Origin: an uncultured Schlesneria sp.
GTDB lineage: Bacteria > Planctomycetota > Planctomycetia > Planctomycetales > Planctomycetaceae
Direction: 5' to 3'
DNA: 64,000 nt
NCBI GenBank assembly: GCA_903904835.1
Contig: CAIVEI010000128.1
Location: 1 to 64,000 of the forward strand
Below the pieces are notes generated by a model. The model saw nothing but the letters and a program-made list of their open reading frames with translations, had not been told where the DNA came from and made no database searches. Of this stretch, positions 128 through 33,967 are shown piece by piece (the first letter of the stretch is position 1; the number at the start of each line of letters is the position of its first letter). The position numbers and the translations under genes were made by a program.

Positions 128-527
128 TCGCTTGCGCTTCGGGCTAACGTTTCTGGGTGTTTTCTGTGATGGCAGCTTAACTCTCGTTCGGCAAATAACT
201 TGTGTCGAATTGCAGAGAATGCGTGAATAATCCGGGTTGCGTCGGAACCAGTCCGTTAATTTATTTCATAAGCACCTTCCAAACGTTAAGAAGCTTGTTA
301 TTGCTTTCTGTTGACGTACGGTAAAATAACTTGTAATAATATGGTGGTATTTTGTGTTGTGAATAAGTTTGATTGTTTCGGTCGAGAAATCCGAGAAATA
401 ACAGCCACGCATCTTTTGGGGGCAAATTCAGAACTGGCAATGAAAAGCGCGGGCCGAGTCCCGGATTTGTGATGTTTTAGAATGATTTTGATCTTTGACA
501 TCTTGGATTAAATTTAAGATGGCTGCC

Positions 528-632
528 CCCCCCGTCGTTGGTTTGAAGCGACGGGGGGTGTGTCGGTTCGTTATTTGGCTTGTGGGTGCTGTCGTTTGCT
601 GTGCGAAGTCCAGAGGCTCTCGCACAGCAAAC
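528..632 (+). other. Two-hairpin module, copy 1 (candidate structured RNA or DNA element)
   Basis: Hairpin 1 has arms CCCCCCGTCG (528-537) and CGACGGGGGG (549-558). Hairpin 2 has a perfect 13-bp stem, GTTTGCTGTGCGA (594-606) with TCGCACAGCAAAC (620-632). The homologous copy lies on the minus strand at 33356-33467, with the same loop TTGGTTTGA(A/G)G in hairpin 1 and the same inner stem GCTGTGCGA in hairpin 2. Several stem pairs differ between copies but remain paired. It is preceded in both loci by ATCTTTGACATC. Function unknown; no Rfam family recognised by eye. Confidence 0.7.
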
Positions 633-650
633 GAACCAGTTCGAACTGTG

Positions 651-32184: not shown

Positions 32185-32581
32185 ACCAGCCAGCCAATCA
32201 AATTCATCCAGGCGAGCCCCGGATGTTAATCCGGGGATTCTTAGACGGGATAATTCAACGAAGTATTGGCTTCAATAAAGTTCGTTCTAACGTCTACGAA
32301 GGGAGCTCCCGCATGATCTGCGGAAAACAAGTTCCCCTGCCTTCGAACCGTTCCAGGCAAGAACGCCAATTGAATACCTCACTCACAGGCCCCATGAGTC
32401 CCATATGTCGCATAAGTCCCATTCGTCCCATCGAAAACAGGTTTGATGTCAAAGTTCACCCGAGTTTGATTGAGTTCGATAAACTTCGTGTTTTCGAACT
32501 TTCGAGTTTTCGCGACAAGTTTTTGATCTTTGATTCACGGAACGGTTCGAGTCTCAAAAGTTTCAAGCAACTACGATAGGC

Positions 32582-33350
32582 AACTCTGGATGTTCTTAGG
32601 CAACATTGCTGATTTCCACGGGCTTTTTCAAAAATCGCGTCTCAAAATGTTTAGGCAACACTGAAGGGGAACTCTGGCGGAGCTTAGGCAACTCTGGATG
32701 GGCAACCATGAAACCGCTTGGGCAATAATGGGAGTTTTTAGGCAACATTGGCGATTTCCGCAGGCATTTTCAAAAATCGCGTCTCAAAATGTTTAGGCAA
32801 CACTGATGGGGAACTCTGGCGGAGCATAGGCAACTCTGGATGGGCAACCATGAAACCGCTTGGGCAACTCTGGACGTTCTTAGGCAACATCGGCGATTTC
32901 CGCGGGCTTTTTCAAAAATCGAGTCCCAAAATGTTTAGGCAACACTGATGGGCAACTCTGGCGGAGCATAGGCAACTCTGGATGGGCAACAATGAAACCG
33001 CTTGGGCAACTCTGGACGTTCTTAGGCAACATTGGTGATTTCCGCGGGCATTTTCGAAAATCGAGTCTCAAAATGTTTAGGCAACACTGATGGGGAACTC
33101 TGGCGAAGCTTAGGCAACTATGAATGGGCAACCATGAAACCGCTTAGGGAACTCTGGGAGTTCTTAGGCAACATTGGTGATTTCCACGGGCTTTTTCGAA
33201 AATCGAGTTTCAAAATGTTTAGGCAACACTGATGGGGAACTCTGGCGGAGCTTAGGCAACTATCGATGGGCAACCATGAATCCGTCTGGACAACTCTGGG
33301 AGTTCTTAGGTGACATTGGCGATTTCCATGGGCTTTTCCGAAATTCGATC
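32582..33350. repeat. 142-bp tandem repeat, five copies plus partial ends
   Basis: The word ATGTTTAGGCAACACTGA recurs at 32647, 32789, 32931, 33073 and 33215, exactly 142 bp apart each time. Every unit holds several GGCAAC words (GTTGCC on the minus strand), for example at 32701, 32741, 32796, 32829 and 32843, plus a segment TTTTTCAAAAATCG. The copies differ by scattered substitutions but no indels inside the core. The period is not a multiple of 3, so it is non-coding. Its GTTGCC words resemble the GTTGCGCA words of the locus 1 array. Confidence 0.93.
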
Positions 33351-33355
33351 AAATT

Positions 33356-33467
33356 CGGCTGCTGTGCGAGAGTCTCCTGACCTCGCACAGCAGCCGACGC
33401 ACCCAAAAGGCAAGCAACGAACCGCCACGGCTGACCTCGTCGCCTCAAACCAACGACGGGGTCAGCC
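33356..33467 (-). other. Two-hairpin module, copy 2 (candidate structured RNA or DNA element)
   Basis: Read on the minus strand, hairpin 1 spans 33467-33429 with arms GGCTGACCCCGTCG and CGACGAGGTCAGCC (one internal mismatch). Hairpin 2 spans 33396-33356 with a perfect 15-bp stem, CGGCTGCTGTGCGAG and CTCGCACAGCAGCCG. The homologous copy is at 528-632 on the plus strand. Stem differences between the two copies are compensated (for example T-A/T-A in copy 1 against C-G/G-C in copy 2 next to GCTGTGCGA). Confidence 0.7.
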
Positions 33468-33539
33468 ATGCTAAAATTGATACCGTGATGTCAAAGATCA
33501 ACGTCGTTGTAGTACATCACGGAGCCGGAACGGCTCAGA

Positions 33540-33640
33540 AAGTGGAGAGCCGCTACAAGCGGTTCACCAGGAGCTGCGGCTTTATGAACCCGAGGAACTT
33601 TAGCGACACTCCAAACGTCAAGTTCCTCAAGATTAGACCA
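33540..33640. repeat. Intergenic repeat module shared with 38630-38725, copy 1
   Basis: Shared words in the same order are GCTACAAGCGGTT, CGAGGAAC/CAAGGAAC and GTCAAGTTCCTCAAGA. On the minus strand both copies read in one frame as LEELD...AKVP.VH.A...G.PLVAA, so a short conserved peptide cannot be excluded. The surrounding frames are otherwise dissimilar. It lies between the D word and the hairpin module of locus 2 and is absent from locus 1. Confidence 0.65.
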
Positions 33641-33967
33641 GATCAAGAAAGAAATCGTTGTCCTGACACATCTATTTGCGACTCTCTCAAAACGACTTTC
33701 TGCCGCTGCGGTCTGGCTGCGGGTGAAACGGCCAATCGCCACCTGCAATTTCGCTAAAAACATAAAACGATAAAAGTATTACACGCAGTAAGTCGCTTGT
33801 AAATAGAAAAACGGGAATGTTTTCTTAACGTTTGGAAGGTGCCCATGACAATAGCCGGGTCCGCTTGAAGCCGTCCGAGGCTGGCAGGGCCACGTGGGCG
33901 ACGCTGCTAGCGTCGGACTTAACAACTTCCAAACCTACGATGACCCGTCGAATACGCAAGTTGCAAT

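Follow-up and report, generated by a model that had tools for sequence, protein, structure and literature searches.

Dispersed noncoding units in Schlesneria with a candidate promoter box in common with a phage-particle operon

Two noncoding units in the window

The window analysed here, a stretch of 64,000 nucleotides from an uncultured Schlesneria sp. (contig CAIVEI010000128.1), contains two copies of a pair of adjacent hairpins, at 528-632 on the forward strand and 33356-33467 on the reverse strand. An earlier note had described them as a two-hairpin module, and both copies are indeed present. However, there are dozens of copies rather than two, and the module does not stand alone: each window copy is part of an apparently noncoding unit of 1.1-1.6 kb, led by a promoter and carrying a boxA-like block. 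Read 5' to 3', a unit comprises a dyad box, a sigma-70-type promoter, a leader, the boxA-like block, hairpin 1, hairpin 2 and arrays of short words. Conservation starts upstream of the hairpins, the boxA-like block lying 20-40 nt and the promoter box 235-375 nt before them. The features of the two units are as follows (G000 is the window's own genome; other G numbers are relatives).

264-1378, forward: copy 1, whole noncoding unit; ortholog at G001 C139:29603
272-292, forward: copy 1 promoter box GCACCTTCCAAACGTTAAGAA, imperfect dyad TTCnnAACGTTnnGAA, putative activator site
311-339, forward: copy 1 promoter, predicted by sequence; -35 TTGACG, 17-nt spacer, -10 TAATAA
488-508, forward: copy 1 boxA-like block TTGATCTTTGACATCTTGGAT
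520-566, forward: copy 1 hairpin 1; match to the hairpin 1 model (R1) at 509-581, E 4.4e-9
562-581, forward: copy 1 conserved linker GTCGGTTCGTTATTTGGCTT
592-634, forward: copy 1 hairpin 2, from its fold and ortholog
642-693, forward: copy 1 array of a 10-bp word, GAACTCGGGT
1080-1378, forward: copy 1 TTGCGCAA words around a AAAAAGCC core
32263-33873, reverse: copy 2, whole noncoding unit, ~1.6 kb; its left flank match falls in a REP-like repeat
33822-33842, reverse: copy 2 promoter box
33775-33803, reverse: copy 2 promoter, predicted by sequence; -35 TTTACA, 17-nt spacer, -10 AATACT
33481-33501, reverse: copy 2 boxA-like block TTGATCTTTGACATCACGGTA
33426-33470, reverse: copy 2 hairpin 1; R1 match at 33407-33479, E 9.0e-15
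33355-33397, reverse: copy 2 hairpin 2, from its fold
32579-33348, reverse: copy 2 tandem array, 142-bp period, 5.4 copies, 90% matches, with TTGCCTAA words

The left edge of copy 1 is the point at which conservation in the family starts; its right edge, the last GTTGCGCAA word, is approximate. Directly before this unit, at the contig end (1-127), lies a perfect 24-bp tandem repeat, AGATCCCGCTTTGAATTGAAGACA, of 5.3 copies without spacers. A nested repeat of the form GCCGAAGCGGCGAGAAAGTAGTTTTGAGAAAGTAG...CCGCTTCGGC is found in the leaders of many units and after boxA, for example at window positions 33700-33500 and in L062.

Other descriptions fit the units poorly. A stand-alone small RNA of 105-112 nt suits neither copy: conservation begins at the promoter box, and neither hairpin 2 is followed by a run of T. 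A coding frame in the array of copy 1 is unlikely because the open reading frame there (825-1391) has no Pfam match and the ortholog differs from it by indels, one of a single base. The tandem arrays of the window are not CRISPR arrays, being head-to-tail copies rather than constant repeats with unrelated spacers.

Hairpin 1, the boxA-like block and the word arrays

The strand of each window copy folds more stably than all of 200 shuffles (z -5.8 for copy 1 and -7.4 for copy 2). In hairpin 2, the differences reported between the copies are real: outside the constant GCTGTGCGA, the stem pairs TT with AA in copy 1 and GC with GC in copy 2. The long stem is kept at the ortholog of copy 1 (G001 C139) with one G-T wobble, and at the ortholog of copy 2 (G002 C17), where one pair is compensated (G-C to T-A), one is a wobble and one is broken. 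Nevertheless, hairpin 2 is recognizable by eye in only 21 of 45 aligned copies, and across 22 rows picked by eye (these 21 plus one ortholog) pairing shows no excess over shuffles, at 79.0% versus 78.3%, a value reached by 151 of 500. Because hairpin 2 fails against its own shuffles, its two compensated pairs are insufficient alone.

Hairpin 1 behaves differently, so that the compensatory pairing proposed for the module holds across the family for this hairpin and not for hairpin 2. From 94 boxA places we aligned the 45 with the linker in place, using MAFFT without structure. The other 49, where allowing 5 edits revealed no linker in the range of 55-100 nt, were left out; among them are units with nested insertions, as well as decayed copies and non-members. 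Over 12 pairs in the 45 sequences, 86.6% of cells form standard pairs; shuffles give 77.4% (sd 1.1), and sliding the partners gives 29-51%. Two-sided changes fill 41 cells (16 in shuffles) and covariation is 0.261 (0.136 in shuffles). Four of five measures were reached by none of 500 shuffles, in a test where kinship among sequences can beat shuffles even without structure; the weak measure, the count of pairs that change on both sides (8 versus 5.8), was reached by 41 of 500. We drew the structure by hand from the alignment and the folds of single sequences, and so chose it knowing the data; the shuffles and slides serve as the safeguard. RNAalifold predicted 0 pairs on the MAFFT alignment of hairpin 1, perhaps owing to unequal stem lengths. 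The compensatory changes beyond shuffles support hairpin 1 as a structured noncoding RNA.

A conserved linker near CGGTTCGTTGYTTGCCTT follows hairpin 1, and hairpin 2 is then present in some copies. Inside hairpin 1 of several units (L081, L093) sits a small inverted repeat of the GGAACAAAA...AGTCCCGGTTTTGTTCC type, with both stem sides left.

A covariance model of hairpin 1 (R1) finds 150 matches, training sequences included: 42, 27, 32 and 49 in G000, G001, G002 and G005. In 11 other congeners, with 150 first-look candidates scored per genome, it finds none at E 0.01, and it finds no hairpin 1 in 787 kb of the outgroup G006 and G007 (best E 1.3). The 64 kb window has no match above the gathering score among 4227 Rfam families. 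With further copies, compensated changes in hairpin 1 and no match in Rfam, the proposal of an undescribed element with an RNA-like covarying hairpin is sustained, for hairpin 1. The other option raised by the earlier note, a DNA hairpin recognized by a protein, we favour less because the hairpin of the window copies lies well inside the unit (~175-300 nt), 3' of the conserved promoter and its predicted start.

The best conserved part of the unit is the block TTGATCTTTGACATCTTGGAA before the hairpins, not the hairpins themselves. A search with window positions 480-640 gives 42 matches in the own genome at E ≤10, of which 18 have E below 0.001. The block is present at 54 places at ≤3 mismatches (reversed control 0), at least one of which, on C33, looks unrelated. 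An exact scan of 84,980 genomes located it in 23 stretches, which all belong to three bins of uncultured Schlesneria. Its core, CTTTGA(A/C)AA, resembles blocks in the 16S (TGATCTTTGAAAACACGG) and 23S (GATATTTGACAATTCGG) leaders of the same genome. The similarity appears good for the G005 form, which agrees with the 16S leader at 15 of 21 positions and the 23S leader at 16 of 21 (equalled by 30 and 5 of 2000 shuffles), and only fair for the own form, at 14 of 21 and 13 of 21 (equalled by 110 and 268 of 2000 shuffled leaders). In rRNA leaders boxA is the site of NusB/NusE antitermination. We call the block boxA-like and suggest, by analogy with rRNA, that it may be linked to NusB/NusE. The own 16S and 23S genes, one match each, lie on separate contigs (G000 C178:38792 and C10:544), and upstream of each are a promoter-like sequence and a boxA-like block.

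The remainder of the unit is a mosaic of modules: arrays of short, often self-complementary words around a core, AAAAAGCCTATGAAATA. We counted words in 81 units with 1.7 kb available and in 104 upstream flanks. The core is found in 49 of the units and 3 of the flanks, TTGGCCAA in 40 and 6, TTGCGCAA in 24 and 3, and TCGATCGAA/TCGAACTCGA in 43 and 5. Enrichment is weak or absent for TTTTCGTG (16 of 81 units, 11 of 104 flanks), and TTGCCTAA, in 5 of 81 units, is no more frequent than in shuffled units. The core pattern is present 26, 24, 27 and 18 times in G000, G001, G002 and G005, and 0 or 1 times in each of 11 other congeners. Contig ends fall within 1.7 kb downstream of 19 of 57 own boxes, compared with 6 upstream; the arrays therefore probably interrupt the fragmented assembly and may extend further than the contigs show.

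The promoter box and the particle operon

At ≤2 mismatches the box GCACCTTCCAAACGTTAAGAA is found 58 times in the own genome and 33, 46 and 41 times in the congeners G001, G002 and G005. It is restricted to these, the own genome and three of 14 congeners, among the 99 genomes searched: the other 95 have none at ≤2 mismatches, and the reversed box gives 0 in the four box-bearing genomes. We sampled 120 of the 178 boxes counted, from loci of the four genomes at ≤4 mismatches (22 of 33 in G001, 20 of 46 in G002 and 21 of 41 in G005). In 103 of the 120, a TTGAC-like -35 element begins 38-40 nt after the start of the box, and the -10 element, with the consensus TATTTT, lies 17 nt beyond the -35. 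The box is an imperfect dyad, TTCCAAACGTTAAGAA, centred ~62 nt upstream of the start site expected from sequence; class I activators bind around 62 nt upstream of the start site. The TTAAGAA half is the nearer in 119 of the 120, with one tie, in a set collected by a query of TTAAGAA form, a pattern that would overlook the palindromic form TTCCAAACGTTTGGAA.

A boxA at ≤4 mismatches follows within 900 nt in 77 of the 120 sampled boxes, at a distance of 153-524 nt (77 pairs). In the 43 boxes with no boxA at that range and threshold, at least 900 nt were available in 30, and 13 reach a contig end sooner; looser inspection of them turned up candidates in only some. The box itself is absent upstream of the 16S gene, since the best fuzzy match there needs 6 edits.

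On reading eight boxA-poor or word-poor boxes of the 120, we found that one own box (C58:49023) leads, after 75 nt, directly into the first gene of an operon of ~15.5 kb (G000 C58, 49.0 to 33.4 kb; loci L177 and L284). The first gene encodes a 440-aa protein whose only match is phrog_11321, with no named function there; from its position and sequence we take it to be a prohead protease. The operon also encodes a phage capsid (PF05065, E 2.1e-37), a head-tail adaptor, a neck/tail completion protein (PF05069), a tail tube (PF18906) and a 704-aa protein taken, from its length, for a tape measure. No integrase, terminase or portal was matched among the 16 operon proteins scanned (two further ORFs were left out). 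The first protein is present in 9 of the 15 genus genomes, own included, at 63-93% identity at the main places; a second, partial place exists in G005, and in G003 the protein is split, one piece having 56% identity and a stop. Its identity falls roughly in step with that of the ThiF gene. Judged by sequence, the operon carries genes for phage heads and tails that have been passed down together with the host genome, one feature expected of a GTA, and it is a possible planctomycete GTA.

The operon box stands ~55 nt before the first gene, at one distance in G000, G001, G002 and G005. At the same place G006 and G007 have the perfect palindrome TTCCAAACGTTTGGAA, G004 and G003 have near-palindromes, and the operon of G014 has no clear box. 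From box to TTTAAT there are 41 nt in G000, G001, G002, G005, G006, G007 and G003; G004 has TCTAAT at 41 nt. This spacing equals that of the dispersed units. Most of the operon -35 hexamers are poor, and the short leader has no boxA. In G000, G001 and G002 a unit lies 3-5 kb from the operon box, pointing away.

We also considered a viral origin of the box. The viral collection holds no exact copy, and ten of its contigs with capsids 61-89% identical to the operon capsid lack the box at the corresponding promoter place. Two of these contigs have an adjacent helicase gene, one of the two also sliding-clamp and SSB genes, and one contig has an adjacent portal gene; free relatives of the operon may thus exist. 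A published analysis places a prophage terminase from Zavarzinella formosa, a planctomycete, close to the RcGTA-like terminases (PMC7947584).

Beyond the box-bearing clade we sampled 587 kb of G006 and 200 kb of G007. In G006 there are four exact copies of the 16-nt palindrome TTCCAAACGTTTGGAA, where chance predicts ~0.0001: at the operon, behind ThiF (the locus of window copy 2) and at two other places. Two of the four had been found before sampling, which leaves the other two as the evidence for dispersal. The 200 kb of G007 contain no exact palindromic box and one at 2 mismatches, so dispersal is claimed for G006 only. At 2-3 mismatches, the first 400 kb of outgroup sequence contain a control palindrome just as often as that of the box, so only exact palindromes count. 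By eye, the ThiF palindrome has word arrays with a related core behind it, and the one on C79 is followed by a word array, a core, the boxA-like TTGATCTTTGGCAATTTGGCG and a 13-bp hairpin. The palindrome at C9:48991 (L336) is followed instead, also by eye, by a small ORF that starts with MSVALVPSSAEF and might be a regulon member encoding a protein. In sequence, the boxes look like targets of a single trans-acting factor, because operon and dispersed boxes share a half: TTAAGAA in one clade, TTTGGAA in G006.

Interpretation and relation to known systems

We propose that the ~50 units of this genome give rise to dispersed long noncoding RNAs that are co-activated with a domesticated phage-particle operon, and whose elongation is sustained by boxA antitermination; we put the probability of this reading at roughly 0.6. 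Transcription of the units, the activator and antitermination are all things we infer from the DNA. A dimeric activator would occupy the dyad box, in a class I position, and recruit sigma-70 RNA polymerase, as at the particle operon promoter. The nascent RNA would present the boxA-like sequence with hairpin 1 immediately after it. The boxA would load NusB/NusE-type antitermination factors, as in rRNA leaders, and hairpin 1 would stabilize or position the complex, so that polymerase could cross at least 1 kb of untranslated repeat without Rho termination. We favour co-activated RNAs protected by boxA because the operon and dispersed boxes match and because the Caulobacter GTA offers a parallel. 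The claim spans four genomes for hairpin 1 and five for the dispersed boxes, the fifth from a small sample.

The alternative that survives best is a MITE-like noncoding mobile element that picked up the promoter of the particle operon together with a boxA leader and then spread, its RNAs having no function in the cell and its transcription and hairpins being passengers or serving its own movement. A high copy number confined to one clade and the nesting of other dispersed repeats in the units fit such an element, as does one case of presence and absence: the copy 2 unit lies behind ThiF in the own genome and G002, whereas in G005 ~23 nt separate flanks that stand 1.6 kb apart in the own genome (in G001 the contig ends there). 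That case is not clean, however, since the left junction falls within a REP-like repeat and, in G005, a further 1.2 kb bounded by REPs adjoins it. Nor did we see, by eye at this one locus, terminal inverted repeats or a clear target-site duplication. Searches with two further own units met flanks on separate contigs and cross-matches among arrays, and yielded no empty sites. The REP-like palindromes CCGACGCTAGCAGCGTCGG lie at window positions 33874-33930, beside the left edge of the unit, and downstream of ThiF in G005 (L248, L247); in G005 and G002 they bound a stretch that resembles, by eye, a REP-associated transposase gene.

Also against an element of this kind, the units keep their promoter spacing and hairpin 1 pairing while differing widely in length and interior, the more distant G006 has palindromic boxes with array units, and several units are common to orthologous flanks between genomes. 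The sampled loci include 31 similar flank pairs, many of them true orthologs and some repeats within one genome; they do not measure turnover because the congener boxes were only partly sampled. Copy 1 and its ortholog on G001 C139, for example, have the same DUF1501 gene downstream. We consider the mobile element credible and still unlikely. Mobility and function of the units are compatible with each other.

Within the co-activation reading, it is conceivable, and on balance rather doubtful, that one activator turns on the virion operon and the ~50 units so that the long RNAs, or the word-array DNA opened by transcription, serve the particles. They might, for instance, provide start points for chromosomal DNA amplification or packaging, or an RNA component of the process.

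A more improbable view holds that the units are DNA elements, the palindromic arrays of 8-12 bp words being iteron-like protein sites which transcription only opens, for example for chromosomal DNA amplification or packaging by the particle system. TTGGCCAA, TTGCGCAA and TCGATCGAA/TCGAACTCGA are or contain palindromes and are enriched in units relative to flanks, and the box is common to units and operon. Yet a DNA site needs neither a covarying RNA hairpin nor a boxA-like block, and the type of word varies from unit to unit. Least probable by far is that the units are long regulatory leaders of downstream genes: copy 1 does end ~200 bp before a co-directed DUF1501 gene, but copy 2 faces a DUF2721 gene from its 3' end, and neighbouring frames (longest open frames, not annotated genes) show no orientation bias, being co-directed downstream in only 13 of 33 units and upstream in 16 of 33.

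If co-activated, boxA-protected RNAs are confirmed, the units would represent a domesticated phage programme whose dispersed targets are RNAs. The ~180 box sites in five species could then be used to find the regulator, and both the way in which GTA-like particles choose DNA and the role of long untranslated planctomycete RNAs would become testable. Even as a mobile element, this would be a high-copy noncoding element with the promoter of a virion operon and an antitermination-like signal. Among the matches listed in a search of the open-access PMC literature, nothing concerned planctomycete boxA noncoding units or noncoding members of a GTA regulon, and we know of no bacterial regulon that combines one virion operon with dozens of long noncoding units.

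Parts of the arrangement are familiar. Some CRISPR arrays have boxA leaders, and the units likewise have a boxA before a repetitive noncoding array; unlike CRISPR, their arrays are head-to-tail, have no unrelated spacers and differ between units. REP, BIME and MITE-type repeats are intergenic, multi-copy and hairpin-rich, as are the units, with their one presence/absence case; the units differ in having a promoter, a boxA-like block, a fixed 5' order, a length of 1-1.6 kb and no terminal inverted repeat that we could see. The nut site of phage lambda consists of boxA plus the boxB hairpin in the leader RNA. The predicted leader RNA of the units also has boxA and then a hairpin, but hairpin 1 is longer and two-tiered, and the units are chromosomal and dispersed; we know of no N-like protein for them. 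Like rRNA leaders, the units carry a CTTTGA(A/C)AA-like block after a sigma-70 promoter and before a predicted untranslated RNA. In the units the hairpin follows boxA, whereas the hairpin-like stretch of the 16S leader precedes it (by eye), and, unlike rRNA leaders, the units have a product that is not rRNA and number ~50 copies.

A further parallel is the GTA of Caulobacter crescentus. There, GafY acts at the particle cluster and at other promoters, ~18 promoters in all, and GafZ gives antitermination with NusA, NusG and NusE (PMC11150451). The two systems would be alike in pairing antitermination with one activator, both putative here, for particle genes and scattered promoters. They differ in that the dispersed targets here are noncoding and the boxA-like block lies in the units rather than in the operon leader.
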